From a virus, in the IMG/VR virus record IMGVR_UViG_3300028374_000012, positions 1 to 64,000 of that record: a stretch of DNA of 64,000 nt; one strand, 5' to 3'. A program made the translations under genes and the position numbers. Below the pieces are notes generated by a model. It saw only the letters and a list, made by a program, of their open reading frames with translations, did not search any database and was not told the origin of the DNA. Shown here piece after piece: positions 12,866 to 59,611 of the stretch. Numbering within the stretch: position 1 is the stretch's first letter; the number at the start of each line of letters is the position of its first letter.

Positions 12866-13768
12866 TTATGACAGTGTCAATTTAGCCACGCCATTAGCAT
12901 TTGCTATGATCATTCCTACAGTTTCATATGCACTGAAAGAAATGAGATTTCGTTTTTTCTCAATATCAAACTTAGTGTCGTTAAGAACACAAAATTCGCC
13001 CATGAAGTGCGGAGCAGCAAAAGCGTAGATTTTGTTGTCTAACAAGTCAGTTTTGTTAGTAACAATAAGTTTACGGCCATACAAAGTACCATGTCCATAT
13101 CCTTTTACAGCAATTTCGCCTTTGAGGGCATCGTCACCGAAAGTACCGTTCGTGTTGTTATCAACAACAAGGCGGTTAAACATAGTGTTACTCATAAGAA
13201 GAGTTTCACTTTGTAGACGTTTTCCGTCGATTTTGTCAAAAAGCTCTCGGAAAGAAGCTTCAGGTACAGCATTGTTTGTGTAACTGCCAGTAACCGCGTT
13301 TCCGCTAACTGTAATAGCTGCATCTACGTGGCCAATAAAGGCGGTATCTTCAATTTCTTGAATATCCAATACTGAGTTCTGCTCAATGATTTGAGTCAGG
13401 GGCATGCGGTATGCCAAAAGCTCTTCTTCTACTTTCTGAAATTCTTCAGATGAAATAGAGTGGAACGGAAGTTCTACTCGTTTCCCTTCAATGTAGTTTG
13501 TTGAAGGCTTGTCTCTGAAGTTAACAACCATCGCTTTGGAATCTGGTTCCAATTCGATCATTTTAATTACGCCGTCATGATTTACCGAAGGCTGAAGATC
13601 AGCTTGGGTAACATATTGAGGGGGTAAAATTTGTCTCGCAAAAGATACCTCACGAAGTCGTCTACGTACAAACGCAGCGCCCTCCATGGCTACTTTTTGC
13701 ATCCCTTCTTCCGTATCGAGTCGTTTCAGAAAAAGGTCATTTACTGTTCTTGCGTCTAATGATTCCAT
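12866..13768 (-). CDS. Major capsid protein, 300 aa
   Basis: Recognised by sequence character and by context: the N-terminal helix 'AMEGAAFVRRRLREVSFAR' and 'PPQYVT', the 'NYIEGKRVELPFHSI' segment, the central 'QEIEDTAFIGHVDAAI' and the C-terminal 'KRNLISFSAYETVGMIIANANGVAKL' are typical of HK97-fold capsid proteins of large myophage-like phages. It is followed by a strong terminator and preceded by a decoration-like gene, as expected for a highly expressed protein. An AAGGAGG Shine-Dalgarno lies about 15 nt before the ATG. It contains no tryptophan. 'EGMQKVAMEG' near residue 25 could be a protease maturation site (inferred). Confidence 0.8.
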   Translation of the reverse strand: MESLDARTVNDLFLKRLDTEEGMQKVAMEGAAFVRRRLREVSFARQILPPQYVTQADLQPSVNHDGVIKMIELEPDSKAMVVNFRDKPSTNYIEGKRVELPFHSISSEEFQKVEEELLAYRMPLTQIIEQNSVLDIQEIEDTAFIGHVDAAITVSGNAVTGSYTNNAVPEASFRELFDKIDGKRLQSETLLMSNTMFNRLVVDNNTNGTFGDDALKGEIAVKGYGHGTLYGRKLIVTNKTDLLDNKIYAFAAPHFMGEFCVLNDTKFDIEKKRNLISFSAYETVGMIIANANGVAKLTLS

Positions 13769-15707: not shown

Positions 15708-18700
15708 TTATCTGTTAAAATTTTTGCTTTTATGGAAATCTTTAAATGCGTTGGTCTTTGGCTGTTTTAGTCCTTTCCTTATTAAGGATTTACTAATACT
15801 GGACCCGGCCCTACCTAAGGCTAACCCACCGACCAGTGCGGTTACAAATGGATTTTTTCTTACAGCGTTTTCAATATTATCTAAAGGCTCACCACGTCTT
15901 GCTTTTACTTCAGCTTTGGCAGAAGTATAATAGGATAGTGGTGCGGCTATAGCAAAACCAGCAGGGTAAGCTGCGGTTTTTTCATTTGTGTCGTTTATAG
16001 TATTTTTCTGCATCTTTGTTATTCCTAACGCTAGTCCACCACTAATTACTGGTGCCACCCATGGGTGGGTTTTTATAAACTTAGCAAAATGTGACGCGTT
16101 TGCAGTATTACCAAAAATTTGAGCGTATCCTGCATACATTGTACCAAGTAACGTAAAGGGTACAACAGGGTTTTTAACCCCGCTATCATTCGGCATAACT
16201 GTTGGCTCATCAAAAAATACCTTTTTAAGAAAACTTCGTTCTCTTTGTTGTGGTGTTTCTTCAATAGGCTCATCAAAATTAGCCTGCTTAGTAATTCTAT
16301 TAATAATTAATGGCTTTGTCAAGGAAATATCTGAAATTTCTTCTTTTATTTCATTGGCAATTTTTTCATTAGCTCTGTCAAGGGACACATTTTCAAGCTC
16401 TTCAGGCATTATAGTTGGATCTACAGAAAACACATGTCCAGTTTTTTCAAGCTCTTGTGCTAATTCATATTGGCCCGCTTTATACAAAGCAAGCTTTTGA
16501 AAATCATTTCTTGTTGGTAAAATTCTTAATCCTAAAAAAGTTGATAAAACATCGTTGATAGGATATTCTGCTAATTTTTTTAGAGTCTCATCTTTTATAG
16601 GTGCCTGGGAATTTAGTATAATATTTCCCGGATCTTCAACAATTCAATCTATATCGCCTTGAATCTTTTTATTGATCTGGCCGTGCTTATCTTCGGCAAC
16701 CTTTTCAATTCCAAAAACTTTCATAAAGGATGAGACGGGGTCAGCTGGAATTGTTACCAATGATATATCAAAAAAGGTAGGCTTGGTATTTATTGCATAT
16801 ACTTTCCGGCCATCACTTAAAACCTGATTCATTTGGTTTTTTAAATAAGAAGAATACTGTGCACGGGTCTTTGCTTTTTTCTTTGTTATAGAACAGTTGT
16901 GTACAATATATTCATTAGCTTGGTATGTTTCTGTTTTTGATACCTGTAAATTTTTAACTTTTAATTTTTTGTCAATTCTTTTATTTTCTATAATTGGTAT
17001 TAAAACATAATTGTCATATATAAAAATTCTAGAAGACTTCTTTGGTTTTTTTTGAATATTTATTTTGTGACAATAATCCTGCAATGAATATGAATCATAT
17101 TTAGAAATAAAACCAATATAAGTGTACATATTTTTAGACCAGGTTGTGTCTATTGTTCTTTTATGTAAAGAACATCCAATACCAATTGTAAAGCATAATC
17201 TACGTAAATCTCTAGATAGATACTCTGAAACAGTACAAAACCTAGAAGATTGCACCTTTGAATCAAATGAACCATCTCCATCCAGATAAGAGCCTAATAA
17301 AGATTTCAAAAATTCATCATTATGATCCAAAATTCTGGGGTGTATAAATTTACCGTTTGAATATTCTCCAAAATTTTCTAAAATTATATTAGCCAAATCC
17401 GATGAATAAGCCCTGCAAGATATTTCATATTTAGCTTCATTAATATAATATTTAAAAGTAGTCCCAATTTTTAAAGCACACTTTTTCAAATCTTGTACTA
17501 AATGATCTTCGTCTAATGAAAAAGAAAAGGACATACCAGAATACTTACCATTTCTTTCTTTTATAAAAGAACCTTCTGCTAACCAATATCCGAAAAATTT
17601 GGCGTGCTCTTTTGTATAAATATTCTTTCTATTTACGCTTCTATAAAATGCTAAGTAATCGCCGACTTTTAATTTTTCTGCTTCTTTAAATTCTAATTCC
17701 GCTTCTGGTAAAGAAGTGAAATAAATTTTAGAATTATTCCCTTTGTTGCTTTCCTTAAATTTATTAGAATCTATTGATAAAAAGGGGTGTTCCTTTGTTA
17801 CTTTTAATTCTTTGAAATCTCCAAATAAGGATAGTTGGTGATAAGAATCTACTTCCCTAATATTATCTTTGATTACTTCAGGTTTTTGGTGGTACTCATC
17901 ATAAACTTTATCACCTATATGAACATCTTTTAATTTTTTATAACCAGTTTCTGTATAAATATCAGTATCTAAACTAAAACAAACATCGTATGGAACTCTG
18001 CAATTATGTACGGCGTACCCCGCTTCAACTAAATAAGACTGGTCATCTTCTACTTCAAAATTAAAGACTGCTCCTTTAAATCCAATTTCTTCGATCTCGG
18101 AAATTGTATAATACCCGGCGGTTTTATTTTTAGGAAACTTAGGAATTATTAATTTATCTCCTTTTTTAACATCTTGTGCCTTAAGCCAAACTTCTTCTTT
18201 TTTACGAATTACTCGTATTGGGTGTTCTTCGGTACAGGTTAGATCTGGCATAGTTTTTCCAGGTACCTTAAAAGTTAAAAGGCGGCCATTATATATTCTT
18301 GGTTCTAGAGAGATAACTTTTTTAACATTGCCTAAATGTGTTCTAACCTCGTCACCTATCTTAATATCTTCAATATTTTTTAAAGTTCCATTATCTAATA
18401 CAACCTTTGTGCCGGCTGTAAAACATCCCATACTTGTTTTAATTACCTGTCCTTCTGAAATTTTTCTAAGTGTGTTAACAACATCGGGGTGATCTGCTTT
18501 TAGTTTAACAACAATTTCAACCCTCTTCATATTATCATTATAATGAGAGAAGATAACACGGCCCATTGATTTTTTAGGATCCTTGTTAACATGGTGCTTA
18601 TAAACATACCCACCGTCTTGAAAAGTGTGATGGCGTGCTTTTAAAGCTTCTTCGGGAAAGTAATCGCCATTCTTGTTGGAGCCATAATATTCCCCAGCAG

Positions 18701-18875
18701 TAAGTGCATTAATAAGTGCATAAAGATATCCATTCTCCCGCTCTAACGAGTTAATATAATTCTCAACTTCTGAAGCATACCCAGCAGTTTTAACCATACC
18801 TTTTTCTTTATCAAGTATGGTAAAAATACTAGGCTCTTGTGGATTCTGGATGTACTCTGCTACTTTTTCTATCAT
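15708..18875 (-). CDS. Prohead protease-like head protein precursor with two inteins, 1,055 aa
   Basis: One frame from 18875 to 15708, broken only by TGA(Trp) after 'IQGDID'. The exteins resemble phage head maturation proteases: 'HHVNKDPKKSMGRV', 'KADHPDVVNTLRKISEGQVIKTSMG', 'CRVPYDV' and 'CSITKKKAKTRAQY', then 'INTKPTFFDISLVTIPADPV'. Inteins occupy residues 151-291 and 299-660, leaving only the seven extein residues CRVPYDV between them. After splicing the protein is about 552 residues. The C-terminal 300 residues follow 'FGIEKVAED' and include two or three hydrophobic glycine-rich segments, so the protein may be a protease fused to an inner head protein. The family call is from motifs only. 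Confidence 0.7.
16896..17981 (-). mobile_element. Large intein 2 with LAGLIDADG endonuclease (362 aa)
   Basis: It starts at Cys299 ('CFSLDTDIYT') and ends 'EYIVHN' before Cys+1. Block B-like 'KELKVTKEHPFLS' is present. Two LAGLIDADG-type helices, 'FFGYWLAEGSF' and 'LLGSYLDGDGSF', both keep the acidic residue, so the homing endonuclease may still be active. Confidence 0.85.
18003..18425 (-). other. Mini-intein 1 without endonuclease (141 aa)
   Basis: It starts at Cys151 ('CFTAGTKVVLDNGTLKNIEDI'), has block B-like 'DLTCTEEHPI', and ends 'EAGYAVHN' before Cys+1. At 141 residues there is room only for the HINT splicing fold, so mobility must have been lost or must come in trans. Confidence 0.85.
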
Positions 18876-20508: not shown

Positions 20509-22998
20509 TTACTGCAAAATTTCTCCTAAATCATAAAACATTATAGCTGCAATAGAACCAAACAGGCTAGAATGTACAAAATCATCGGGACCTACGTTCG
20601 TAAACTTCTGTGTATTTTTGTCCTCATCATACTCAATAATAACGTTTCTAGCATCTGAGGCTAAATGCGAGATGTCCTCCCATCTTGGTAATCTTAATTT
20701 ACCGTTTTTTATTAATTCAAAATATTTATTCATTATATAATTTTTGTTCATTGTATATGCTCTCATTTTAGCATTATACTTGATGGGTTCTTTTTGTGCG
20801 CCAAGATGTTGAAAAGCTAATACCTTTTCTACGCCCAATCTTTTTCTAAATTCACTGTTTGGTGCTTCGCCCATTCCATAATCAGCAGCTAATATATTAC
20901 AATTTCATTCTTTAAATATTCTGGGAACTTCTTCATGAATAAAAGAATAGTCGCTTTCCTTGCCTACAAATCGTTTAGCATAAGCAACCTGAAGCCTTCC
21001 ATCTATTACTTGAATTATTGATATAACTGTGTAAGAGTTTTCACTATTTACCGGCCCATAATCAATTCCCATAATAGACGGCCGAGTTCTATAACCTTTA
21101 TGTGGTTTAGAAGACATCTCAAAATCTTCTTTACAAGCTGCCATTAATTCAGCTTTTGTAATCGGTATAGATCCACTATCATATTCTAAGCCAAGTGTCT
21201 CATTATAGAATAAGGCTGTAGAAGTATTCTCCATTTTATAAATAACATCCTTTTCCCAATCGACCCAGGGAGAGTGTGCAAAGTGAAGCAAGCAGACTCT
21301 GTATCCTTCCATATCCGGCATCTTATCAGGGTCGTCATATGTTGAGACCCATTCTCCTTTAGCTGTCCTTAAATCTAATTTCTCGCCGCATTTACTACAA
21401 GCTAATCCGGTTAAAGCAATATTATCTGGTCCTAAAATATTCCAGTGGTTGCAAGCATTACACTTAATTACATATTCATATTGAGTACTCTTGAACCATA
21501 AGTCTGCAAGGGTGCCTTTTGTTCGCTTAGGAGTTCCGGCATAAACTGACTTTTTAATTAAAGATCTAGACATTGTTTCTTGGATAACTGTGATAACGTC
21601 TTTCTTTAAATCCTGGCAGTTACCAACAACAACGGGACCTTTTGAGTCCTGGTGTCTTACAATTAAAGTACCGTTAGGAACAGTAGCACAATACACCTTA
21701 CCTTTATAATGCTCTGTAAAAGGTTCATTATTTTCATTATTAAGTACTCTTATACTTCTTTTTGAAACCTTTACAATGTACTCAGGATTCCCATACCTAG
21801 TTTTTTGGGTTATAACATTGCTGGGATTGCCCCCTATTAAACGAACTGCTTGAAGGTCATCTGCCAGTTGTTTGTCTTGGGTTCTAAAATGTGTCCATTG
21901 TACTGTAGCATTAAAAAAGTCTTCTGTGTAATCTCTATATTCAATAAAAGTTTCTAAAGGAATACGATTGTTCAGCCCCATTACATATTCTTTAAAATCC
22001 GGATCTGTTATAACATAAACATCTCTTGCGGAATCTTTCTTAGGTTTAACCCAATGTGATAATCCTAGATTTTCTAGGGATGTATGAAAGCTTGAAGAAA
22101 ATCTATTTTCTTTAACATAGATATGTATTTTACCAGTATCATCATCAACTTCCCCTCTTGCAAAAAACCAACCCAAAAATGTAAAAAAGTCTTTGGCCGG
22201 ATAACCCATAAATGTTTCCGGGGATTTCTTTTCTATAGGTTGTGGGTGAGTAAGCATCCGAAACTGCACATCAGTAGTTTCCTCAGCTTTCAAAAAGCCC
22301 CAGGTTTTTTCGTCCTGTATGTTTGCATATAAATTATGTCCGGGAGTTGTTTTTAAAAGCATGCTTTGGCTTTGGAAATTATAAACTTCTCCCTCGTAAT
22401 CTTTTTGGATAATACGGGTTGGCTCTTGAAATTCTAATTGTTGGTGAGCATTTACAGTTGCAAAAATATCATCTTCGGTAATCCGGGATACATTTTTTCA
22501 TCCCTTTTTTGTTAGTACTTCCATATCATCTGTAAAGCACTCATCAAAATAGTTATAATCTGCAGAAATACCACGAATACGATCAGCGTTTAATAAAGCA
22601 TACCTTAAGTTAATTACGCTACCATTTATAAATTCTTTTTTATAAACATTCTGAACAAGGCGGGAATCAATGTAATGGTTTTGGATTAACGGCGAGTTTT
22701 TAATAACCGGCTCTAATTTATCACGTGCTCATTCTTGAGTCTGGGCTACAGCGGGTGAAACATATAATTGTTTTATATTACCCTCCATTAAAGCTCGGGA
22801 CATAACTATATTTGCTAGCGATACGCTTTTCGATGTTTGTCGTGAGAACTTCATAACAACATCCTGGGCGGAGCTGTTATAGATTCTACGCATGTGGGGG
22901 TAATCATCCAGGGAAAGGGGCTTTCCCTGGAGATATAAGAAATTTTCTGAAAAGTCACTGAGCGTTAGCTCGACTGTTTCCTTTTTATTTTTTGCCAT
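20509..22998 (-). CDS. terL: Terminase large subunit with intein, 829 aa, three TGA(Trp)
   Basis: Three ORF pieces in one frame are joined by TGA codons (TQEWARD, KKGWKNV, FKEWNCN). The N-extein has a Walker A-like 'FSRQTSKS' (the usual Gly is Ser) and Walker B-like 'YNYFDE', directly followed by the intein. The C-extein resumes at 'CQDLKKDVI', then 'SVYAGTPKRTKGTLADLWF' and a zinc-ribbon ('CNAC' and 'CSKC'). The nuclease motif region is 'SIMGIDYGPVN' and 'CNILAADYGMGE'. Spliced length is 522 aa, normal for TerL. It cuts and pumps genome DNA into the prohead. bS21 overlaps its start by 34 nt. Confidence 0.9.
21619..22539 (-). mobile_element. Terminase intein with degenerate endonuclease (307 aa)
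   Basis: From Cys154 ('CFTDDMEVLTKKGW', Trp as TGA) to 'VVVGN' before Cys461. The usual penultimate His is Gly. Block B-like 'LLKTTPGHNLY' is present. One LAGLIDADG-like helix 'FFTFLGWFFARGEV' lacks the catalytic acid, so the endonuclease looks decayed. It is inserted right after the Walker B acidic pair, a known intein hotspot. Confidence 0.88.
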
Positions 22999-27846: not shown

Positions 27847-28206
27847 ATGGCAATCATACTAGAAAAAGATGTTAAGCACATAGTCCTGTCAGACCGGTCT
27901 AATAAAAAGGTGATAGGGTGGTTGGAAAATGCAACCAAACAATGCATTGGTCCATATCTATATAGTAAGGATAATGTTGAGATGACACTAATCGGAAATA
28001 AGGTAAAAATTTTATTAGGGGAAATACCTACTAATAAACATATAATAACGGGATTCCAAAAACTAATCCGAAGAGCGCATAGAAAAGGATTAAAAACTTT
28101 CCCTTCTATAAAGTTCCAACTAGAGAGCGGTACTATTGTAACCTCTGGTCAGATTCTAACTCTTTCAGACTACGATAGCTTACTTTCTTGGAACCCAAGC
28201 GTTTAA
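27847..28206 (+). CDS. Unrecognised early-type protein, 119 aa, isolated in the late block
   Basis: Has its own promoter (27786) and an AGGAG site before the ATG. It shares 'KHIVLSDRSNK' with the 115-aa protein at 52687 ('KHIIRSDRSNK'), and 'IGWLENA' and 'PTNKHIITGF' with the 144-aa protein at 52117 ('VGWLNNI', 'PPNKHIFTCY'). The three form a small paralogous family. No TGA. Its last 74 bp overlap the end of the opposite photolyase-like gene. Confidence 0.7.
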   Translation: MAIILEKDVKHIVLSDRSNKKVIGWLENATKQCIGPYLYSKDNVEMTLIGNKVKILLGEIPTNKHIITGFQKLIRRAHRKGLKTFPSIKFQLESGTIVTSGQILTLSDYDSLLSWNPSV

Positions 28207-29077
28207 TATTCAAGCTTCCTTCTCGGATCTTTCTCTTTAAATAAGCCTTCTTTAATAGAACATCTTCTTCCTCATTAAACTTTTTATAAAAATGAGAAAA
28301 AGAACTATTAGCAGGTAGCTTATCTTTAACAAAGTAAATTCCTTTAACCTCATCTCGAGTAGGATAAAGAGATCTACGTTTTAAAGAAGAGGTAGGTTTA
28401 TTAGATTTCCACCTTGACAACCATTCTGCGTGGCCTTTATTTATTTCAGATAAAGCCTGAGATTGCGGTTTAGGTGTATAATCTTCGGGAAGTCATTTTT
28501 GAATATATTCTTTATTGGGGTCAAGACGTTTAGTGGCGGTAAGGGGATTGCTTTTCCTAAAGTAGGGCTCAGCAAAATTACTGCCACTCGCGGCACTAGT
28601 TACATTGAATGTGGTTAGTACAGGATCATAATCCTTAAACTTACCACCAAGTCATTTAGCTATTACCTCGGGATCAATATTTAAATTCCTAGTCCCATAT
28701 CGAGCTAAAAGCAGCCGGGCCCTATTATGGGGTTTACCGGTTTCCTCTAGTTCTCTAACGGCAGCATCGACCAAAGGAATTCCCGTTTCTCCTTTTTTTA
28801 GCTTAAGAAATTCTTTAGAGTTTTCGTCTTTGGCCCCGGGCAACTCTTTGTAGTCTTGTTGTTCGATAGCGCTTCTGGCAAACTCTCTAAATACTAGCTG
28901 TCTTTTAATTTGTGAAAGATAATCTTGCTCATCATCTGTTAGCTTTGAATTTTCCAGCTGAGTGTTCACAGCTTTAATAACATCTACAGGGTGTATGTCT
29001 CCCTTGGCTAGCTGTTCAGATAAGCCTGTGGAATAATTAGTTAAAATATTCCTATTTATTTCTTTAGGCTGGATCAT
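28133..29077 (-). CDS. Photolyase/cryptochrome FAD-domain-like protein, 314 aa, two TGA(Trp)
   Basis: Joined across TGA at 'AKWLGG' and 'QKWLPE'; the second is the conserved Trp of the photolyase 'Y(I/V)xxWLPEL' motif. Residues 60-240 follow the FAD-binding domain order: 'LVFREFARS', 'TGIPLVDAAVREL', 'TGKPHNRARLLLA', 'SNFAEPYFRKSNP', 'RLDPNKEYIQKWLPE'. The antenna-binding N-terminal domain is missing and the Trp of the usual 'GWMHNR' is Lys, so CPD repair activity is uncertain. The last 75 residues are basic. The ATG overlaps the upstream nucleotidyltransferase stop. Confidence 0.75.
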
Positions 29078-29933
29078 CTAATTTTTTTAAATTAAGTTTT
29101 GACTCAACCAAATCAAGATCAATGTCCTCTACTCGCTCCGGAAGTTCAAAATTTGAAGCTGCTTCAAAGATGTCTCTATATACAGAATAAGATAACATTT
29201 TATAATTAACGTTGGCCCCGGTTAGTCTGGGAATTCCCCAATCCAGCGAGTATCTGTGGTGTCGCTCTATATAAGCGGTATAAGCAATGTCGACAAGTTG
29301 CTTCCACGCAACTTGCGCCTTTCTCTTTAAATAGGTTGAAATTTGAGAGCTGTAGTTTGGATTTGTGATTCGGCCACCCTCATAATTTTTATATTGTCGC
29401 TTTGCTTCTTTAAATCTTGAAACAATTTTATTAAATTCTTTTACTTTATTTCTAGCTACAACAAGCTCACCAAAATATTTTTGCTCTGGGGTTACCGGCG
29501 GTTTAGAAATGTTTGGCTGGATTAACCATTCATCTGCTTTTAAATCATACACACCAAAGTCTCTTTCATACAAACCTCTTTTTGTATGTTTATTCCAAGG
29601 TACTACATAATACTGGTATGTTCTGCTACTTAGGGGTGAACGGAAATGTTTATGGGATATATCTCCCACAAGTTCACTTTTCATGCTACCGGTTCACTCA
29701 GGTTTTGGGTTATCTAAATATACTGTAATATCAACATCGCTGGTATCATTATAACGTAAACCAGTTAATGAGCCTCCTAGTATAATCATAGGAATATCAT
29801 CTAGCGGAATCTTCTTACTTATATTTTCCAGAAGCTCTAGCCGAATATCAGAGTGAAGTTTATTGTATTGATTAAATAAATCCGGGGCTAGCCTGTCTTT
29901 TGCTTTGTCTAATATGCCTGCTAATTTTTTCAT
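29064..29933 (-). CDS. Nucleotidyltransferase-fold protein, 289 aa, one TGA(Trp)
   Basis: 'ILGGSLTGLRYNDTSDVDITVYL' at residues 51-73 is the Pol beta-type nucleotidyltransferase motif: GGS, then Asp66 and Asp68, the metal ligands. One TGA gives 'PEWTGSM'. The remaining 200 residues are helical and basic, with no recognised substrate domain. It could add nucleotides to RNA, protein or a small molecule. It overlaps the photolyase-like gene by 14 nt and so is co-translated with it. Confidence 0.7.
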
Positions 29934-31096: not shown

Positions 31097-32476
31097 TTAA
31101 GAGGACTCTTTCAAGGCCTGCAGGAATTGATTATTTAATTTTTGTTTTTTGTCTGCGATCTGATATAAATATTCATCAGTAGATCTTTTTCGTTTGGCTC
31201 CTAAGAACTTTCTAAACTTGGACGGTTCCGGAGTAGTACTTATATATTTTTTAACGCGCACATTTCTTTCATTTTCTGGTAAGTGAGCATGAGAATTAAG
31301 TCTGGCCGCCCTACCTATTGTTTGCTTTATGCGTGCTGTATTCCAATGAGGTTCAGTTATCTGTACAAATTTGGTGCCTTTTAAGTCCAGGCCCTCACTA
31401 CCGGCCCCACTAAGAAGCAGGTGTCTTACCTTGCCCTGGTTATAATCTTTTATTATTTTTGTTCTATCCTTTTTGCTTGTTTCTCCTGAAAAAGTTCTAT
31501 AAGGTATTTTTGAATTTTTTAATTGATTGTCTATAGAGGAAATACCAGAGCCCAGATAATTAGAATATGTTATACCCTTGTAATTAGGATCCTTTTTATA
31601 ATTTCTTTTAATATCACTTACAATCTTTTTAACCTTAGGGCTAACATTATTTCCCCGAACATCATAAGATGATGGGGTATTAGAAATCTGCCGAGTCGCA
31701 TTTAAAAATGCATTCATCTGGGGACTTTCGGCTTTACTTGCCGGAATGCCTTTTCTTATTTTATAAGCAAGAGAAGGAGACTTTTTTAAAGCTGTATTAT
31801 AAACTTCAAGTTGGCGCTTGCCCATTGGGACTTCTATAATTTCTTTTTTAATTTTAGGAAATGAGTCTGAGTTTGACTTCTGATAATCTACCTTTCCTTT
31901 TAAGTGTCGCTTTAATACATGAAGATTTTTTGCATGATATTCGGTTCCTGGTTTTACTCCTTTTATGTATTTGGCTCATAAACCTGGATTAACTTTTTTC
32001 TCTTGTATAAAGAACTCGTTAAACTTTTTACTATTCCTGGGAATATCGATATCCAGCCCTCTTAGCAGGGGGATAAGTTCTGAGGGGTGATTACGTATAG
32101 GAGTTCCTGTAAGTAGGATCTGTTTATCAGCTTTAAACTTATCCGGGTAACGACTTCGTTGGCTTGAAAGTCGACCAGTGCGATGAGCTTCATCATATAT
32201 TAAAAGAGGGTAACGTTTTCCTTTTCTAGCATTCGGTTTTGTATAAGATGAGTAATCAACTTTTGATTTAATCTTATGTTTTTTAGCCTCTTCTTCAAAG
32301 TTTCCTTTAAGTGATGCCGGGCCAATTACTTTAGCAGGGGCTTTAAACTTTTCTGCAATTGATAAAGCTGCAAGGGTCTTACCCGTCCCCAACCCCCAAT
32401 ATAAAAGTTGTTTATCATTCTTTTCTAGTTTTTTTAAAACCCGCTTTTGATGGGGTTGTAGCTCTGTTTTAGACAT
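31097..32476 (-). CDS. SNF2-family DEAH helicase, 459 aa, one TGA(Trp)
   Basis: Two ORFs in one frame are joined by TGA in 'NPGLWAKYIKG'. Motif I 'WGLGTGKT' (residues 27-34), Ia 'VIGPASLKGNF', II 'DEAH' (95-98), III 'LLTGTPIRN', V 'LLSGAGSEGLDLKG' and VI 'QTIGRAARLNSH' are in order with normal spacing. It is a compact SNF2-type translocase acting on double-stranded DNA. It is placed with ligase, nucleotidyltransferase and photolyase-like genes rather than with replication genes, suggesting action on the incoming genome or on host DNA soon after entry (inference). Confidence 0.88.
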
Positions 32477-34526: not shown

Positions 34527-36392
34527 CTAACGTTTTAGAGTTACTTTCTTTTTATTAAGTTCTCGTAGTAAATTTCGAGTTGCCCCAAAGTTAAAGCTAT
34601 TTTTTTCAAAATCCGCTTTTTTATTTAACATTGCTAATAATTCTTCTTTTGATTTACCTTCAACCTTGTCTTTATAAGGCCTAATTAATTGTTTTTTACC
34701 AATAGGTAACCCTAGTATCTTTTTCCTTTTTCTTTCTGAATAATATTTAAGAGTGTTAGAAAGAGTATCTTTATCCAAATTTTTTGTTTTCTTTTTAATT
34801 GCTACATAACCTTCCATTCCCTTTTCAGGGTCAAAGGACTTTAGTTTTTTTCGAACTTCGCCAATGATTCCTTTACTAACTTCTAACTTAGTATGACCTC
34901 CTTTTGCTACTTCATAAAGGACAGGAGTCTTATCTTTATAAGGAGATAGATACATTAAAGCCGATTGCGGAGAACGTCTAGTTCAGCTGTGGTGTTGGGT
35001 TACATATTTTTTATCTTTTGATAAAGAACTGTCGCTTAAATCAAATGCTATTTTTTCAAATTTATCCATTCTTATTCTTTTAAATATTGGTGCTTGGTGC
35101 ATTCCAGAGGTGTGCCGGCGCTGACTTTTAAACTCGGCCCACTCTCCTATATACTTTTCGGGGTTCTGATATGCGTCTCTTCTAAGTTGGTCGTCGAGTC
35201 CGGAACCTACTTTTAATTTAATATTACTATTTTCCGGCTTAACTATAAAACCGCCAATTCCATTATTATGATATTTGCTATCAGGGGCGGCTGGGAATAC
35301 TCCTACAATTTCTGCGTCCCAATCGAGCCGTTTTTTGCTCTTACGCGGCGTCGGACTATCTAAGTCATACACCACTATGCCTTCGTCGGTTAGCGGGTGT
35401 CTCTGTTCAAATATGGCCTTCTGGAGCTCTTCTTTTTCCTCTTTTGTTCTTGCAAAAGGAGGAACCCCAATTGTATTTAATTTTCTTTTAATTTCATCAA
35501 GCATTGGAAGCTTTTCGGAGAAAGGCAGATCTTCTACATTTTTTCCTTTCCATTTTACAACATCGAACGCAGCTACGCTAAGCGGCCTGCTTTCTTTGCT
35601 TTGGATTTCCCGGGATTTCCAAACATTAGAATTTAGTAGCCGGGCCGTTTGTTCACCGGGGTGGCCGGGAGTATAAAGCTCTCCTCTTAATATTGTTTTC
35701 TTAAATTCTTCTGGTATTACTTCTTTATAAGCTTCGGTTCGATACGTGTGATCTATCCTTTCGGGGCCTCTTCGTGATTTGCGATATGAGAATATATCAG
35801 GTGTTTTACCACCTCTTAATACTATAAGATTATGGGCCCCATCAAGTTTAGGAGCCCAAACCTCTTTATCCTGTCTGTGGGCCGGGTCTAGTTTTTCCAG
35901 CTTTACTGTTTTATAACTTTTTTTAGAGTCTGGAACATCCTGGAATACTTTAGTTTCTTCAGTTGGGGTGTAATTATAAAAAAGAAAGTTATCTGTCCCG
36001 GGCTTTCTAAGAAGAATATATCTTTGTGTGTCTCGGCCGGTATATCTATTAAATTCTACTTTGTTTGGAGTGGCTTTTAAAACTTCTACAGGTTCTTGGG
36101 TTAAAGACTTAACAGTTCCTTTACCATAGCCCTTTTCGATTGTTCCAGAAAAGCCCATGTAATCACGGGTATGAAGATCGACATTTATGGCCGTTGTCTT
36201 CTGGCCGGGCTCGGGTAGTTTCTTTGAAGCTCAAGAGTATGCTTTTTGGGAGCCTTTTGGGGATAAGCGGATATCTAGATGCCTTCCAGCTCGCTCAGCG
36301 AGGTGCTCTTGGATATTAAGATCCCATTGCGCATTCTGTGCGGTAGGGATTGTTCCTTTATATTTTCTTTTTGGGATTCCGGGTGCGTCCAT
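34527..36392 (-). CDS. ATP-dependent DNA ligase with LigD-type 3'-phosphoesterase domain, 621 aa, two TGA(Trp)
   Basis: ATG at 36392; TGA codons give 'AYSWASK' and 'HHSWTRR'. Residues 20-95 match the LigD phosphoesterase domain: 'QEHLAERAGRHLDIRLSPKG', 'VDLHTRDYMGFSGTI' and 'YGKGTV', keeping His30, His38, Asp40, Arg42, His74 and Tyr78 at the catalytic positions. The ligase core follows: motif I 'APKLDGAHN' (Lys182), III 'LRGELYTPG', IIIa 'AAFDVV', IV 'DEGIVVYD' and V near 'KKRLDWDAEIVG', then an OB-fold with 'GEWAEFKSQ'. A basic 165-residue C-terminal extension is unrecognised. It can trim 3' ends and seal nicks or breaks, as in bacterial NHEJ; no Ku or polymerase is seen here. Confidence 0.85.
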
Positions 36393-37044: not shown

Positions 37045-39108
37045 CTACTTGCCACTATTTTTAAATGCATTATATGCTGCTACTCCACCCCAACCTGCTG
37101 CTGCTCCATAGAATGGTAATTTTAGGTATTTTGGCATTTTGTATAATCTGTTAGTTGTGACTGAGGTATCTGAGATTATCTTTTTAGCAGCGTTCTCTCT
37201 TATTACTTTTGAAGCATCATTTGCTTTAGATTTATAATTATCCAGATTATCAAGAACTTCAGATAATGAACTTTTAAGAGAATCTTTCTCATCTAAAATA
37301 ACTGTTGGAGTTCCTTGCACTTTTGAGAAATGTTTTGCATTTCCTACCATATGCGGTGCATAAGAATCTTTTACGCGGTTTGTAACAACCGGCAAAACAG
37401 GCTTTCCTTTAGCAATTGCTTCGGTTGTACTTATCCCATGTGGCCGGGCCAAGACAACATCTGCTGAGTCGATAACTTTTTCATAATTTTTTTCGAATCC
37501 TTGGGCAATAACTCCTTTATATTTAGACATGTTTTTACGAACATTCTCATTTTTACCACTGATTCCAATAACTTGTATGTCCTTTCTTCCAGACTCGGCC
37601 AGCTGACGTGTTACCTCGTCAACGTCGAACCCAGTAGTACCGCCTGTTACTGCTATTAATTTCTTTTTAGGATCAAGCTTTACTTTCTTTCCGGTGGCGT
37701 TACCTTTATTATCAAACATTTGGATTTCTTTCAGCTTAGCTCTTCTCTTTTTAGGGGTTTTCATGAATTTAGAAGAGATGGGCACAGAAGGTATATCCGT
37801 CATTGGGATATTTACATGTGAAAATATCCCTTTTGCTTCGGCAGAAGGCGTATAAATTCTGCTTATGGATTTTTTATCTTTTCCGTCTAAACCAAAAGAT
37901 GAATACCAAAATCCTTTTGATCCGGGTGTATCAACACCATAATCAGTCATTACCATTTCTGGCTTGATACCCATAGGTTTAATAAAATTAGTAGCATCGG
38001 GTTGTGTAACAATAACTCGCCCGGCTCCTTTTAATTCTTTTTGTAATTTTCTTTTTTGGGTGTTACGCATAGGGCCCATTCCTAAAACGAACCCTAGATA
38101 ATTTCTATACCTTTTAGGGCTGGGGGTAGAGGGCGCAGTCATCGTGTCATAGCGAGACTTATTGAATTTAGAAAGATATTTGTTTCTGAACCGAGAATAA
38201 TCAGTAAAGTTAATAGCTTTAGCCGACCCTTTGCCATTTAATTTCTCGTGCTCTTCTACTAAAGACTTTGCTACAGCAGCGTGTCCGCCGCCTCCCGGGT
38301 TATGTTTGCCGCCTTCAGTTACAACAACCAGCTTATTACTTTTTGGGTCAATATTGTTTTGGAATTGTTGTAAATATTTTTCTCGGATAGTTGGCGTTGC
38401 CAGGGATCCGGCCGCTACCGCTGCAGGGAATGCTACAGGCTTATCTTTTTTCTTATTTTCTTTTGCTAATTTTCTAAACCCGTCGGCTGCTAAAGCTGTT
38501 CCCCCTAGCCCTGCAGCTCCCATTGTTGCAACAATGGCTGGGTAAGTTTTATTTCCTGGTGTATTTTTTTCTGCTCTATATAATTTTAACATGGCTCTAC
38601 TTTCTGGTTTGGTAACATTTTCTAATCCTTTTTCTTTTACTTCTTTTAAAAATACGTCTAATGTTTTTTGGAGTCGTTTTAATCTTCTAGGAGTGCTATT
38701 ACGCTTCATGGCTCGGTTCCCTATAACCTCTGATCCCCAAAATTTTAAAACATCATTTGGCTTTCCTGCAAACTCGGTGTAATGAGTAGACATAAAGGGG
38801 TTCTTTTTAGGAGCTCTTATAATTGTATTTCCAAAAACTTTTTCTGAAATTGTTGCTTTTCCTAGAGATGGGTCTAATTTCTTTTTATGGTATCTAATAG
38901 CTGATTTTCCGGGCGCAAACTTATTTAACATGTTGTCTGAAAACTTAAGATAATTTTTTACTCAAGAAGCGTGATCACTTTTTGATAACATTGGGTTCTT
39001 AAGTATTGGCGCGCCTCGATATGCTACCGCTCCGCCTAAAACTGCTAGTGGTAGTCCTATTGCTATTTTTGCTTTTTGTCGTGCTGAGTTTTGCTTATCA
39101 GTTCCCAT
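37045..39108 (-). CDS. GT-B glycosyltransferase of MurG/MGDG-synthase type with membrane anchor, 687 aa, one TGA(Trp)
   Basis: ATG at 39108; one TGA gives 'HASWVKNYL'. Residues 1-60 hold a hydrophobic segment, and residues 150-220 two more. Residues 220-640 are a GT28-like GT-B fold: 'NKLVVVTEGGKHNPGGGGHA' (N-domain glycine loop), 'VIVTQPDATN', 'PEMVMTDYGVD', then 'KKKLIAVTGGTTGFDVDE', 'DIQVIGISGKNE', 'GFEKNYEKVIDSADVVLARP' and 'GISTTEAIAKGKPVLPV', the sugar-nucleotide-binding region. It may glycosylate lipids, host envelope or virion proteins; the substrate is unknown. Confidence 0.75.
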
Positions 39109-47191: not shown

Positions 47192-47229
47192 AAAAAGAGC
47201 CCTCCCGATTAGGAGGCTCTTTTTTTTTA
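47192..47229. terminator. Bidirectional terminator between convergent genes
   Basis: AAAAAGAGCC(C)TCC / GGAGGCTCTTTTT hairpin with A and T tracts on both sides; ends the lipoprotein operon and the minus gene ending at 47227. Confidence 0.85.
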
Positions 47230-49353
47230 GTTTACCTTTTTTATTGTTGCCTGTAGCTGGTATAGTTGTTCAACCACTTCACTTAAACCTGTCATTGCAT
47301 TTTTTACTGCATCCGGAGACGTAGACTGTAACCCAAGTCTTGAGGCAATCAGTAACTTTGACAAGTTTGTCAAAGCTTCCTCATAAATAGGTAGTGCATC
47401 AATATATTCTGTAACATTCCTGGTTCTCAGTAAATTCAGTGAGAGCACTGCATCAACAGATGTTTTATCTGTTAAAGTAGCTGCTTCTTTTACAAGCAGC
47501 CGAGAAACTTTCATTTTATGTGAAGCTGTCTTCTCAAACTCTTCAGAGATAATCTCATCTAAGTTATTTAAGCTCATGGGTGCCTTTAATTGACCTTCCA
47601 CTTCAAATGATCTATTAAACTCAAGGCCTGCAAACTTTTCAAGGTCCTCTTCAACACCACCGCAATGGACAAGCGCCCATTTAGCGTCAAGTTCACTTAA
47701 ATTACGTACTGGATGTTCTTGTGCATACTTTGTGAACTCAGGGCCGCTTAGGTTATATAGTCCTGCTTTATCTCGAAAAACTTGGTGATTATTTAATAAT
47801 GAGTTAGCATTTTTAATAATTTCACCAGATTTTTGGTCTTCAACCATAAGAAAGTCATCTGCATTGATTAAATAAACAGCTTCTTTTTCAAGCCATGTCG
47901 CCGGCGATTCTTGGTCAGTTAAATAGAATGCAACCTTATCAAACCCATTTAATCCTTCTACTTTTATTTTAGCTTCAAAATTCTTTAAATTAGCTAGTTT
48001 TTCATTGTTTTTATCTAATTTGATCCATTTAGCATTCTTAGGTACATAAAACCCTGTTTTTTCGGTTTCGTGTTGCTCAAAACCTTCATTTTCAACCTTG
48101 ACTGGATAAAATGCCAGCTTAGAAAAGAATTCTCCTTCTCCTTCAATTGTCCAGTTGCCCGGTCCGGCCACTTTAGACATCTTAGTGATTGTAACAGGTG
48201 CAGTTGCAGTTTTTTCAGTTACAAATATGCCATGATCACCAATTTTTGGCTCTGATCCTTCAAAATCATCAAAATTAGCAGTGCCTTCAAGTTCAGAGGC
48301 TGTTTTTACATATTCTCCACTAGTTGTAACTGTCAGTCGCTCAGAACCACCAGTATCAATCCGCCAGTTTGCAAATTTAGGTCGATCTGCTACTTTTTCA
48401 ATATTTGTAATCATTAATTCTACTAAAGGGGAAAATTCACCCTCTTTTACCGTTCCAATTTCACCAAAAGCGCCTTTTTCTGATCTAATTGGTTTTTTTT
48501 CTGTTTTAGAGGCAATTTTCTCTAATTTTGGTCGAGATTGCTTATTTAGAAGCATTTCTTCTTGTTCTTGCGACTCAAGAGTAGAAATCTTGGTTGTCCA
48601 GGTCTTATTGAAGCGTGAGTTGGCCTGTTTAATAAAATGTTGGCCATTTTTGTCTCTATATGTAAGCTGGCGATCAATCTCTAAATTTCTTACATAGTCA
48701 TCAAGCGAAGCAGTTTTAGTGCTTTGCTTGCTCTTGTCTACTAATTTCTTTATCAGATCTAAATGTCCGTTCTTTTCAAATGCTTTCTTGACGATAGGAT
48801 CTTTTAACTCTTCTAAAATTTCCATAACATCATCTCTGTGAACAAATGAAAGTTTGTCGATTACACTAGCCACTTTCACAGCATCACGCGTTGTTCTGTT
48901 GGAGCCTGAAGCTGAACCATAATTGTCAGTGGGGCTATATTGTAGGTGATTGCTCCCACCAAACAAGTTCTCCATCACAGACTTGCGATCCATCCGTACT
49001 CCTTTAAATGCGTCAGGCTTGTTATAAATTTGTTTCAAGAAAAAGTCATTTAGTGGTACAATAGCTTCCGGAAGTATCATTACATCCATTGGACTAAGTC
49101 GGAATTCTTTGATAATGACCGGAACACTAACATCAATAACTTCCAGGCTGCCTACTGCATAACCTTTTTCTGGATCTTTCTTGGTCCAGGATATTGACAT
49201 TGCTTCTTCTTGTAGATATGGAAATTGTTCTAGGAAATAACTTACAATTTCTTTAATCCACTTTGTGTGGTCTTGGTTAAGGAAAAAGGAATAAGACTCA
49301 GCCGTCTTTTCGAGCTGAATCTGGGGTGTCTCTTCAACAAATAGATCTTTCAT
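47227..49353 (-). CDS. Large unrecognised virion-type protein with K-[TV]-A motifs, 708 aa
   Basis: No TGA although several Trp are present (all TGG). It has about ten motifs of the type LEKTAES, TKTASLD, LEKIASK, IEKVADR, VKTASEL, TEKTATA, FDKVAFY and FEKTASHK, the same motif as in the head genes. Acidic-basic mixed, no membrane segment, no enzyme motif. Lies next to the spike gene, so a baseplate or internal virion protein is likely. Confidence 0.55.
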   Translation of the reverse strand: MKDLFVEETPQIQLEKTAESYSFFLNQDHTKWIKEIVSYFLEQFPYLQEEAMSISWTKKDPEKGYAVGSLEVIDVSVPVIIKEFRLSPMDVMILPEAIVPLNDFFLKQIYNKPDAFKGVRMDRKSVMENLFGGSNHLQYSPTDNYGSASGSNRTTRDAVKVASVIDKLSFVHRDDVMEILEELKDPIVKKAFEKNGHLDLIKKLVDKSKQSTKTASLDDYVRNLEIDRQLTYRDKNGQHFIKQANSRFNKTWTTKISTLESQEQEEMLLNKQSRPKLEKIASKTEKKPIRSEKGAFGEIGTVKEGEFSPLVELMITNIEKVADRPKFANWRIDTGGSERLTVTTSGEYVKTASELEGTANFDDFEGSEPKIGDHGIFVTEKTATAPVTITKMSKVAGPGNWTIEGEGEFFSKLAFYPVKVENEGFEQHETEKTGFYVPKNAKWIKLDKNNEKLANLKNFEAKIKVEGLNGFDKVAFYLTDQESPATWLEKEAVYLINADDFLMVEDQKSGEIIKNANSLLNNHQVFRDKAGLYNLSGPEFTKYAQEHPVRNLSELDAKWALVHCGGVEEDLEKFAGLEFNRSFEVEGQLKAPMSLNNLDEIISEEFEKTASHKMKVSRLLVKEAATLTDKTSVDAVLSLNLLRTRNVTEYIDALPIYEEALTNLSKLLIASRLGLQSTSPDAVKNAMTGLSEVVEQLYQLQATIKKVN

Positions 49354-51179: not shown

Positions 51180-52160
51180 ATGAAAATACGTAACCTAGGC
51201 TATGCGTGTGAGAATTACCAACTACGCAACCAAGACGAAATTATCCGTACCAGTAGAACTATGCGAAAGCGCACATTTAAAACAAGAGGTATGAAATATG
51301 TCAACGAACTGTGTGAAGCTAATCTGCAAGATCTTTTAAAGATACTTAAATGGAATCATGAGAACGGCGTAAAGTTATTTCGTATATCATCAGATATCCT
51401 GCCATGGAAATCTCACTGGCGGTGGGATCAACTCCCGGACAATAGTAAAGTCTTAAATTTACTCTCTGATGTTGGTGGGTATGCAAGACTAAGCGGCCAA
51501 AGATTAACCTTTCATCCGGACCACTTTGTAAAACTGGCGAGCCCTGATAAGAAAGTGGCTCAAAATAGCATTGACGATCTTATAGAACATGACAATATTT
51601 TGAATGCAATGTTTGGAACAACTATCACTCAAAACCATTACAATACTGTTAACATACATATTGGAGCAGCTTATGGTAATAAATTTAGAACTTTAGACAG
51701 ATTTCTACTTAGATTTAGAAATGAGCTGCCTAGCACGCTGCGCTGTCGATTAACTATAGAGAATGACGACAAGCCCGCCCTGTATCATACCAGAGAGCTT
51801 TTCAACTATTTTGTGGGCAGAGAAGTGATACCTATAATGTTTGATTTTCATCATTACAGAGTAAACCCAGATCCAAAAGCCAGTGAAAAGTATTCAGCAA
51901 AGCTTGCAGAGCTAACCTGGCCCGTATTAAGTACTATTCCTATATTTCATTGGAGTGAGAGCCGGCGAAAAGAGCAAGGCGATGATAAGATACGGAAAAA
52001 TGCCCATAGCGATCTATGTTATGGTCCATTACCTACATATAAATTAGATAGGCCAGTTGACCTAATGATCGAAGCAAAGCATAAAGAACAATCAATAAAT
52101 TTAATTAAATACGCAAATGGAAGAAAAGTCCATTCAACACCAAAGAGAGTACCCCATTGA
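51180..52160 (+). CDS. uvsE: UV damage endonuclease, 326 aa
   Basis: Begins 'MKIRNLGYACENYQL', with 'RTFKTRGMKYVNELCEANL', 'LFRISSDILPW', 'RLTFHPDHFVKL', 'LTIENDDK', 'IPIMFDFHHYRV' and 'IPIFHWSESR', the full set of UVDE TIM-barrel motifs including the metal-binding His, Glu and Asp residues. It nicks DNA 5' of UV photoproducts. It ends at TGA; two codons later comes TAA, so a Trp reading would add only three residues and the case is neutral for code use. First gene after the promoter. Confidence 0.9.
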   Translation: MKIRNLGYACENYQLRNQDEIIRTSRTMRKRTFKTRGMKYVNELCEANLQDLLKILKWNHENGVKLFRISSDILPWKSHWRWDQLPDNSKVLNLLSDVGGYARLSGQRLTFHPDHFVKLASPDKKVAQNSIDDLIEHDNILNAMFGTTITQNHYNTVNIHIGAAYGNKFRTLDRFLLRFRNELPSTLRCRLTIENDDKPALYHTRELFNYFVGREVIPIMFDFHHYRVNPDPKASEKYSAKLAELTWPVLSTIPIFHWSESRRKEQGDDKIRKNAHSDLCYGPLPTYKLDRPVDLMIEAKHKEQSINLIKYANGRKVHSTPKRVPH

Positions 52161-52551
52161 TGTGAATAAAAAATGGGGAGTAAGAGCCGAGCTTGATATG
52201 AGTAATGATGATAAAAACCCAACAGATAAAGCAATACTTGTAGGGTGGCTGAACAATATTGAGTCAATACCAGAACTAGAAAACATACTGGTTATGGTTA
52301 TAAACTTTACTCAAGCTGTATACGGTAGCGAGAACAACATAAATAAAATACTAGAACTACCTCCTAATAAGCATATATTTACCTGTTATTTTCCAATATT
52401 TAACCCAAAAGCAACTTCAGAGGAAATTGAAAAGGAAGTTTGTAAAGCTTCAGGGGGTTTGCTACATAATTTTAAACTAAAATCATTTAATACTAAAAGC
52501 GATTTAATAAAATGGGTTTTAAACATAAAACAGAAAACGGAACCGGAATAA
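52117..52551 (+). CDS. Unrecognised protein of a three-member family, 144 aa
   Basis: Starts inside uvsE. Shares 'VGWLNNI' and 'PPNKHIFTCY' with the protein at 27847. Ends at TAA. No domain recognised. Confidence 0.6.
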   Translation: MEEKSIQHQREYPIDVNKKWGVRAELDMSNDDKNPTDKAILVGWLNNIESIPELENILVMVINFTQAVYGSENNINKILELPPNKHIFTCYFPIFNPKATSEEIEKEVCKASGGLLHNFKLKSFNTKSDLIKWVLNIKQKTEPE

Positions 52552-55493: not shown

Positions 55494-56076
55494 CACAAAA
55501 TAAAGCCCAAAAACAGCACAATTTTATAAACCCTTATTTTATATGGGTTTATAGGATTTCCTGTCAGCAAAAAAAAAGCTTGTCAGCGTAAAAAACAGCA
55601 GAACCTATTATTTTTACTAATCTTAAGTAGGTTGGTGCTCCAAAAACACTTAACCATACTCTCTCCTATATATTTTTACTCTGTTCTATTACAACACTCT
55701 CTCTTACTCTCTCTTTTACTTTCTTTTTTAGGGAAAATAGTGGAAAAGATATATAACTAACTAATATATATAGAGTTAGAGATTTTTTTTGCTGGTTTAA
55801 ACGTGTCATTTTATTACACTTGCTGGCTATCTTCCGGTGTTTATTAGACTTATAGCTGGGGTAAAAAACGTCGAGTTTTATTTGGAAATCAACAAACTGA
55901 AGCTTTTAAAGTAAACATACCTTTCAACTTAAATTATTTAGGACACTAAATATTAAAGAATTTTAACCAACTAAATTCAAACATTAAAACTTTTTAATTA
56001 TTACTACACTAAACATTAGAAATCTCTAATTAATAGGTATAAGAATAATGATAAAGACGAAAACTTAAATTAAATT
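55494..56076. other. AT-rich non-coding region after the primase-helicase, candidate origin
   Basis: No supported ORF. It holds a 9-bp-stem hairpin TATAAACCC / GGGTTTATA (55525-55553), two TGTCAGC copies around an A9 tract (55562-55587), a long pyrimidine-rich stretch (about 55660-55730), and the promoter at 56033 at its right end. Position beside the primase-helicase suggests an origin (inference). Confidence 0.4.
56033..56050 (+). promoter_or_regulatory. Plus-strand promoter, AGGTATAAGAATAATG
   Basis: Eighth copy of the motif; first base of the core differs (A for T). Heads the operon from 56077. Confidence 0.7.
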
Positions 56077-56865
56077 ATGGACAACATATCAGAATCAATT
56101 AGAAAACTAAAGCGAAGTTTATTTTTAAATGAGGATTTAGAGGATAACATGAAATTTCTGGATAACCTTAATTCACAGTTCTCACAGAAAGTTGTCGCTG
56201 TAAGAGGGGTAGGGACTTTAGGTCCTTTATATAACTTAAAGGTTGGCAAATATTCTACCGATCGAGAGTGCCAGGCAGTAGTCAATATGGTTAATGAAAT
56301 AATTGAGCATATAGAGCAAACTATGCTGGATGATGCTTTCGCCGGTAGAGTACTATATAACAAAAATCTAGAGGATAGTAATGTGGAAAAGCGGCGAGAG
56401 TTTCTTGCATTATATATATTGCACTATATAATGGATAGATCAGATCTGGGTAACCCCAAGTATTCAGAGTCTACAGTTTTAGCAAATAAAGAGTTTGCAG
56501 AAACTACAATAATTTTGGATACTGGAGATAAAGTCTTAGTTAGCACTAATAATCCTTCATTTAGGACTAATAATATAATTACTTATTATAATGATGACTA
56601 CAATTTCAAATTTAAAACTGATTTTAATGACAAGCGGTATGATGCTTTGGCCAACGAGGCCCAAAAAATACTCAACAACCATAATGAAACAGTACGCGCC
56701 TTACCTTTCTCGCCTTTATTATACCACTCATCATCTAATATTGTAAACCAACGAATGAAAAATGCTTTCGAAGGCTACACAGACTTTCTAGAAGCTTTAA
56801 TAATATATGCTCAAAATCAGCACAACTTTTTAATTAAAACAGATAAACCTAAAACAAATGATTAA
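56077..56865 (+). CDS. Unrecognised protein, 262 aa
   Basis: Mostly helical with an N-terminal acidic/basic helix ('ESIRKLKRSLFLNEDLEDN') and 'STDRECQAVVNMVNEIIEHI'. Its last base is the A of the next ATG (TAATG). No family recognised. Confidence 0.6.
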   Translation: MDNISESIRKLKRSLFLNEDLEDNMKFLDNLNSQFSQKVVAVRGVGTLGPLYNLKVGKYSTDRECQAVVNMVNEIIEHIEQTMLDDAFAGRVLYNKNLEDSNVEKRREFLALYILHYIMDRSDLGNPKYSESTVLANKEFAETTIILDTGDKVLVSTNNPSFRTNNIITYYNDDYNFKFKTDFNDKRYDALANEAQKILNNHNETVRALPFSPLLYHSSSNIVNQRMKNAFEGYTDFLEALIIYAQNQHNFLIKTDKPKTND

Positions 56866-57194
56866 TGGCACTGCAATATTTTGAGAACCACCCAGAACCT
56901 GATAAACCTTATTGGAGCATCCTGGTAAATCAGGATAGAGATCAAACTCCAACAATGTTTAAAAAGATGGCAACTACAAACAACATGGGAGATAATTCCT
57001 ATGGTTATGTAGTTTACAACAAAGCGGGCGATGTTATAGCTTTCCAAATGCTGGATGAGCCTACAATCAAAGCTCCGGAGATTCCTAAAGACCCTAAAAA
57101 GGGTATGAAGGTTAATATAAAGGTACCAAGTCAATTCGGGATATTCCCGCCGTATAAAGTATTAAAATCAATCTTAAAAGACCAGAATAAATAA
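56865..57194 (+). CDS. Unrecognised protein, 109 aa
   Basis: Coupled to the previous gene by TAATG. 'PEIPKDPKKGMKVNIKVPSQ' in the C-terminal part; otherwise featureless. Operon member. Confidence 0.55.
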   Translation: MALQYFENHPEPDKPYWSILVNQDRDQTPTMFKKMATTNNMGDNSYGYVVYNKAGDVIAFQMLDEPTIKAPEIPKDPKKGMKVNIKVPSQFGIFPPYKVLKSILKDQNK

Positions 57195-57195
57195 T

Positions 57196-57687: not shown

Positions 57688-57698
57688 ATAAACTAAGT

Positions 57699-57722
57699 AA
57701 ACAAACAAACAAACAAACAAAC
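57699..57722. repeat. (AAAC)6 microsatellite in a leader
   Basis: Six tandem AAAC units ending 11 nt before the ATG at 57734. Could enhance translation as an A-rich leader or vary in length by slippage. Confidence 0.85.
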
Positions 57723-57733
57723 GAAAACGTATT

Positions 57734-59350: not shown

Positions 59351-59360
59351 ATAGTTTAAG

Positions 59361-59390
59361 GCCGGGCCCAGCGCCCGGCTTACTATTTTA
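59361..59390 (+). terminator. GC-rich hairpin, weak terminator
   Basis: GCCGGGC-ccagc-GCCCGGC stem, followed by TTACTATTTT rather than a clean T run; may attenuate or protect mRNA ends. Confidence 0.6.
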
Positions 59391-59412
59391 AACCTAGTAA
59401 AAGATAAATACA

Positions 59413-59601: not shown

Positions 59602-59611
59602 AAAAAGAGAG

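Follow-up and report, generated by a model that had tools for sequence, protein, structure and literature searches.

A gene of an uncultured phage encodes a LigD-type 3'-phosphoesterase (PE) fused to an ATP-dependent-ligase-type domain (PE-LIG). From the domains, folds, residue conservation and gene context that we observed directly, and from searches of records for Ku, which found none, we infer its activities, substrate, timing and virion association, and the reading we favour, at a probability of roughly 0.65, is a bifunctional phage enzyme that heals 3' ends and seals strands at single-strand breaks without Ku. In the proposed mechanism the PE domain, through its Mn2+ site, would remove the 3'-terminal ribonucleoside that blocks the end, and possibly a 3'-phosphate as well, whereupon the attached NTase-OB domain would adenylate the 5'-phosphate and seal the break. 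In this phage and those closest to it, the enzyme would be made along with the late packaging and head genes, and would most likely mend nicks or blocked 3' ends of the packaged or incoming genome.

The window analysed is a stretch of 64,000 nt from an IMG/VR virus record of 69,695 bases, which may itself be a fragment. The initial annotation had read TGA as tryptophan in this gene, and this reading holds: the 621-codon frame (Table 1) needs code 4, with in-frame TGA codons at W54 and W470, whereas translation table 11 splits it into 34527-34955 and 34983-36158, and TGA54 falls in a tryptophan column of the family alignment (W in 46 and F in 7 of 53 ungapped rows). When 13 TGA columns from aligned late genes were pooled, the relatives carried W 62 times, F 16 times, A 9 times and Gly never, one column carrying most of the weight. 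No tRNA gene, for TGA or otherwise, was found in the 64,000-nt window or at record positions 60000-69695, and no Rfam match within the window. In-frame TGA is common in the leftward late genes and almost absent from the rightward genes 53049 to 61358; the frames of the fetched relatives are open under the standard code.

Table 1. Position of the PE-LIG gene, its parts and selected late-block genes in the window
Feature	Position	Strand	Remarks
PE-LIG gene (P0001)	34527..36392	-	621 aa under code 4
In-frame TGA codon 54	36231..36233	-	family column is Trp
In-frame TGA codon 470	34983..34985	-	tail, non-conserved
PE domain, residues ~18-143	35964..36341	-	Pfam LigD_N; model against 3p43 and 3p4h; active set H30 H38 D40 R42 H74 Y78
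Ligase domain, residues 146-446	35055..35957	-	NTase then OB; K182 (nucleophile position), E337, K351, K353
C-terminal tail, residues 447-621	34530..35054	-	model mostly low confidence, helical
Motif FEKIA, residues 445-449	35046..35060	-	hydrophobic-x-K-x-A, directly after OB
Second motif copy LNKKA, residues 589-593	34614-34628	-
SNF2-type helicase	31097..32476	-	two genes downstream of PE-LIG; ortholog of Arash Gp217
Nucleotidyltransferase-like protein	29064..29933	-	GS..G...SDxDxxV; four relatives also have it close to TerL or PE-LIG
Terminase large subunit	20509..22998	-	leftward block; apparent intein-like insertion
Major head protein	12866..13768	-	leftward block

Profile, PDB sequence search and structure comparison agree that the phage PE belongs to the LigD 3'-phosphoesterase superfamily. 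Residues 28-95 match Pfam LigD_N (PF13298) at 33.3 bits against a cutoff of 31.1, and among solved sequences the Korarchaeum PE 3p4h comes closest (E 1.9e-7). An AlphaFold model built from the 54-row family alignment is confident to about residue 445 and poor beyond (means of 10-residue blocks ~88-98 over residues 11-440); in VIA-align comparisons its residues 22-143 superpose on the Methanosarcina barkeri PE 3p43 with Z 16.6, rmsd 1.8 A, 116 aligned residues and 28% identity, and the PE on 3p4h with Z 16.0, rmsd 1.8 and 112 aligned. The initial annotation had assigned the N-terminal 95 residues to this family and proposed structure prediction against LigD PE as a check. All three comparisons return LigD PE for this region rather than another family, the predicted barrel fitting 3p43 at the Z value given; what has to be amended is the extent, the fold reaching well past residue 95 (Table 1).

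The catalytic His/Asp/Arg/Tyr set, likewise claimed at the outset, is retained in full. According to a study of the Pseudomonas aeruginosa PE, its Mn ligands are His42, His48 and Asp50 and its phosphate ligands Arg52, His84 and Tyr88; its substrates include 3'-ribonucleotides, and Arg14, Arg15, Glu21 and Glu82 are needed for the phosphatase step and not for removal of the 3'-ribonucleoside (PMC8656161). Mapped on that set, Q40 corresponds to Q28 of the phage protein, the three Mn ligands to H30, H38 and D40, and the three phosphate ligands to R42, H74 and Y78. Among 52 ungapped rows of the 54-row alignment H30 is histidine in 51, and H38, D40 and R42 are invariant; none of these four belonged to the DNA search pattern used to collect relatives. 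The invariance of H74 and Y78 among the relatives is a selection effect, because both sat in the pattern, which is not so for the phage protein itself. The position of Glu82 is Asp72 here and proline in 45 of 54 rows, so the phosphatase activity may have been lost, here and in most members; the N-terminal region in which counterparts of Arg14, Arg15 and Glu21 would lie does not align reliably. With all six Mn and phosphate ligands kept, the enzyme would nevertheless seem well equipped for 3'-ribonucleoside removal. Loss of Glu82 in most members is also what could be expected were the PE a catalytically dead DNA-binding module, an explanation that we regard as very improbable: the Mn and phosphate ligands are near-invariant, and in two viral PE proteins (L068 and L056) an intein-like element lies exactly at the active-site motif, between RAG and SHxDLR. 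Inteins favour conserved catalytic spots.

The ligase part was described initially as a complete ATP-dependent ligase. A domain of that type is present, but 'complete' overstates it, since the protein has NTase and OB domains only and lacks the arginine of KxDGxR, the signature of DNA ligases. Residues 179-347 match Pfam DNA_ligase_A_M (30.0 bits, cutoff 26.2), residues 141-445 match the PHROG 114 ATP-dependent ligase profile, and residues 376-441 match DNA_ligase_OB_2 (PF14743) at 28.0 bits, exactly on the cutoff of 28.0, the OB domain being present in the model as well. By VIA-align, residues 155-446 of the model superpose on T4 DNA ligase 6dt1 with Z 18.1, rmsd 3.5 and 268 aligned residues; Lig E follows at Z 17.2 and the LIG domain of LigD at Z 16.9, values so close that structure alone does not tell the branch of origin. 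The catalytic residues are conserved: motif I K182 and motif IV E337 in 54 of 54 rows, and of the motif V lysines K353 in 54 and K351 in 53. At the position of the KxDGxR arginine stands H187, and S, H, A, G, L, Q or Y elsewhere, with arginine in none of the 52 of 54 rows shown. By fold we therefore file the protein as DNA-ligase-like, DNA being its presumed substrate. Beyond the ligase domain extends a C-terminal tail on which the initial annotation was silent (Table 1).

The same motif I, KxDGA[S/H/A] without the arginine, would suit an enzyme that seals nicks in RNA, or nicks that contain RNA, in preference to DNA nicks, and two of the 54 members match Pfam RNA_ligase; action of PE on 3'-ribonucleotides, as described for the P. 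aeruginosa enzyme, points the same way (PMC8656161). Against this, profiles and structure comparison both lead to DNA ligases and an OB domain is present, and we consider RNA sealing quite unlikely. Judged from the residues, the replacements of Glu82 and of the motif-I arginine may affect both the phosphatase step and the choice of the strand that is preferentially sealed.

Relatives were collected with DNA patterns of the PE motif, which yielded 78 + 27 = 105 virus loci. The patterns require H74, Y78, F81, G83, I85, G88, Y89, G90 and G92, and these fixed residues bias the set of PE proteins found, so that the counts given here are not prevalences. Sixty of the 105 loci encode the fusion: in these the alignment with the phage protein exceeds 300 residues, with identities of 27-44%. 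An identity filter reduced 61 rows to 58, and L042, L099 and L106 (short) and L027 (a near-copy) were left out of the 54-row alignment, whose members are 25-46% identical to the phage protein; LigD_N is matched by 53 of them (E 0.001), OB_2 by 28, DNA_ligase_A_M by 26 and DNA_ligase_A_C (PF04679 type) by 3. In a PE tree of 196 rows, from which rows cut short or without the H-x-D-x-[RS] motif were excluded, all 52 usable fusions fall in one clade (SH-aLRT 97), joined by a further 11 viral rows and by 2 from short MAG contigs; the clade stands apart from the cellular LigD rows, which are those among the matches listed. These data give good support to a phage-specific lineage spread over dozens of uncultured phages, not the peculiarity of one phage.

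No PE-LIG fusion was found in 50,697 phage records, where three members used as tblastn queries matched by their ligase part only. With L045 as a fourth query the matches, to T4-type ligases, were weak; eight of them start inside the PE part (E ~2e-3 to 5e-3, 22% identity), in proteins annotated simply as DNA ligases. In a plasmid search the PE part of the phage protein led to LigD, and with this protein alone as query no close relatives emerged from viral_contigs or genome_contigs. Nor did the one literature library searched turn up a phage PE-ligase. Other viral PE architectures occur as single open frames: LigD Prim-Pol + 2H + PE, SNF2 + PE, PE + ASCH + topoisomerase IB, and ligase + ASCH + PE (L012, L070, L088 and L091). 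A second, stand-alone PE gene of ~140-160 aa is present in G002, G003, G004 and G017 (loci L229, L230 and L234), near the terminase in G002, G003 and G017.

The fusion had been taken initially for an end-healing architecture of the non-homologous end-joining (NHEJ) type, with a genome search for Ku suggested as a check. This interpretation found no support. No Ku was found in the phage's own, incomplete record or in the 50 fusion records, which may be fragments; the Bacillus subtilis control was positive. Pfam finds no POL domain in the protein, no LigD equivalog model comes close to its cutoff, and LigD_Prim-Pol exceeds its cutoff in one of the 50, possibly fragmentary, fusion records (G031/L108). 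The OB type of the 54 members, OB_2 in 28 against PF04679 in 3, likewise departs from NHEJ. In L108 PE-LIG runs on, without a break in the frame, into a LigD-type polymerase domain, so that this viral contig encodes a complete LigD-like set. A role as an NHEJ ligase for double-strand ends, acting through a host Ku, would still account for the presence of two of the three LigD domains, in the order of PE-LIG-POL LigD enzymes. L003 shows LigD beside Ku, and a precedent for genome closure by NHEJ exists in phage Corndog, there with a phage Ku (PMC4351075). With no Ku found in 51 possibly fragmentary records, POL above cutoff in one of 50, a PE clade apart from cellular LigD and a different OB type, such a role appears distinctly improbable.

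The gene context bears on when a Ku-free healing and sealing enzyme would act. Leftward of PE-LIG lie genes for a glycine-rich hydrophobic protein, a protein with a ParB-like C terminus, the SNF2-type helicase, the nucleotidyltransferase-like protein, a photolyase FAD-type domain and the terminase, and, further along the same block, for a KxA-rich protein, a portal-like protein, scaffold-like proteins and the major head protein. The order PE-LIG, SNF2 helicase, terminase, portal, scaffold and head protein recurs in near relatives; an SNF2 ortholog is encoded in 6 of 13 fetched stretches (L228, L231, L232, L234, L239 and L240), five of which share the stretch with PE-LIG. PHROG tallies, which cover 50 of the 60 fusion loci, place the head protein family PHROG 2522 in 29 and TerL PHROG 675 in 36 records. 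PE-LIG was said at the outset to stand among virion-type genes rather than with replication; for this record and its near relatives that is correct, the gene here lying in the late block and not with the primase-like gene 53049-55493, but it does not extend to the family: of 36 records with both genes, 8 have PE-LIG on the TerL strand and within 12 kb of TerL, where random placement would give 4.7. The eight are among the members closest to the phage protein (37-45% identity), and two of them, G006 and G008, look like near-copies. In 16 of 36 records PE-LIG is on the strand opposite TerL, mostly far away, which together with the eight rules out a constant place beside the terminase.

Several neighbours deserve description in their own right. 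TerL is 829 aa long here, whereas several relatives have 515-537 aa, and it carries an insertion at about residues 150-460 that is probably an intein, as it matches a homing-endonuclease-like PHROG. The portal-like protein (15708-18875, minus strand) has 1055 aa; its homolog in L228 (14999-17932) carries Hint and LAGLIDADG domains, and relatives lacking them have 555-585 aa. The photolyase FAD-type domain (28133-29077, minus strand) comes without a recognised N-terminal photolyase domain, a UvdE UV endonuclease is encoded at 51180-52169 (plus strand), and a 687-aa protein (37045-39108, minus strand) combines a C-terminal glycosyltransferase family 28 domain with hydrophobic segments at its two ends. 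The neighbouring nucleotidyltransferase might conceivably fill gaps as a polymerase, but a model of it (5 rows, pLDDT 79) matched known structures weakly, MNT- and ANT-type enzymes best and Pol mu lower.

The presence of UvdE and of the photolyase FAD-type domain in the record, and the opposite-strand position of PE-LIG in the 16 records above, would fit a purely intracellular repair or replication ligase, for instance in UV or oxidative excision repair, with no tie to the virion. We hold this to be rather unlikely, though deserving of serious attention, as it sits poorly with the late-block position here and in close relatives, away from the primase-like gene.

Among cultured phages, Salmonella phage Arash and Vibrio phages D69, D148 and D181 come nearest by head protein and terminase, and the SNF2-type helicase shares 39.6% identity with Arash Gp217 across 477 columns. 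In purified Arash particles the unique peptides number 38 for Gp217 and 30 for the major capsid protein, with 1148 and 1333 spectra respectively; the Arash DNA ligase has only 2 unique peptides, and the authors of that study allow for carry-over of some enzymes or abundant cell proteins (PMC10585845). Arash proteins were also considered as PE relatives and rejected, its 'phosphoesterases' and Gp143 giving no significant PE match and its Gp177 ligase being weakly similar to one member (E 0.002). Given the late-gene position of PE-LIG and a nearby helicase whose ortholog is abundant in virions, a Ku-free healing and sealing enzyme would most likely serve the packaged or incoming genome.

A further link is a short motif, hydrophobic-x-K-x-A, of which the phage protein has two copies (Table 1). 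When the 29 of 58 rows without a 15-residue tail were left out, [FLIMVYW]xKxA was present directly behind the OB domain in 14 of the 29 remaining PE-LIG tails, that of the phage protein included, against 2.5 in shuffles, none of 1000 of which reached this number; the tails share ancestry and are not independent, which weakens the count. Control motifs with E, R or D in place of K were not enriched in the tails, and over whole PE-LIG proteins the motif was not enriched either (11 against 13.7 expected). It is enriched in protein groups of head and scaffold type, the strongly enriched groups being those around w19475 (66 against 9.5), w14664 (31 against 3.4), w15708 (42 against 10.0), w14280 (12 against 1.3) and w47227 (35 against 5.8), with no enrichment in the TerL, helicase and head protein groups. 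The seven Arash proteins enriched in it (gp4, gp218, gp220, gp222, gp223, gp225 and gp242) all appear in the particle table (PMC10585845). As a marker of late against early genes the motif failed, since the late set (44 against 25.0 expected) and the early-labelled set (26 against 8.5) were alike enriched, 16 of the 26 early-set copies coming from one protein; only the per-group test is informative. That protein (47227-49353, minus strand) is of unknown family, and its homologs lie near PE-LIG in L233, L235 and L239.

We read hydrophobic-x-K-x-A as a possible targeting or cleavage signal of head proteins. Taken together, this circumstantial evidence makes physical presence of PE-LIG in the virion a tentative proposition, somewhat short of even odds. 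The fuller version, in which PE-LIG and the SNF2 motor form a virion-carried mending kit, targeted or processed through the motif, that heals the incoming genome before replication and independently of Ku, is unlikely as a whole; such a kit may prefer 3'-ribonucleotide nicks, a preference that is possible because Glu82 and the motif-I arginine are replaced.

Compared with known systems, the phage enzyme shares with bacterial NHEJ LigD (PE-LIG-POL or POL-PE-LIG) the metal and phosphate residues of PE and its fusion to an ATP-type ligase, but differs in having no POL, no Ku in the searched records, a phage-specific PE clade, an OB domain of OB_2 type and replacements of Glu82 and the motif-I arginine. 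The stand-alone archaeal PEs of M. barkeri (3p43) and Korarchaeum (3p4h) are closest to the phage PE in fold and length; they are not fused to a ligase, and the phage PE has a two-residue insertion (RAGxH) ahead of H-x-D-x-R. With Lig E and the Chlorella virus, T4 and PHROG 114 ligases the protein has the NTase and OB fold in common, and a profile match over 141-445, whereas those enzymes have no PE domain and possess the KxDGxR arginine. The phages Corndog and Omega resemble the PE-LIG phages in using end-joining parts, but there the phage brings Ku and recruits the host LigD, whereas here it brings PE-LIG and no Ku was found.

PE is known from LigD and from archaeal stand-alone enzymes. If a phage lineage of PE-LIG fusions does without Ku, the coupling of 3'-end healing to sealing would exist outside NHEJ too. 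The PE-LIG set also constitutes a collection of enzymes with natural changes at two activity-determining residues, and a repair enzyme delivered with the virion becomes directly testable by proteomics.
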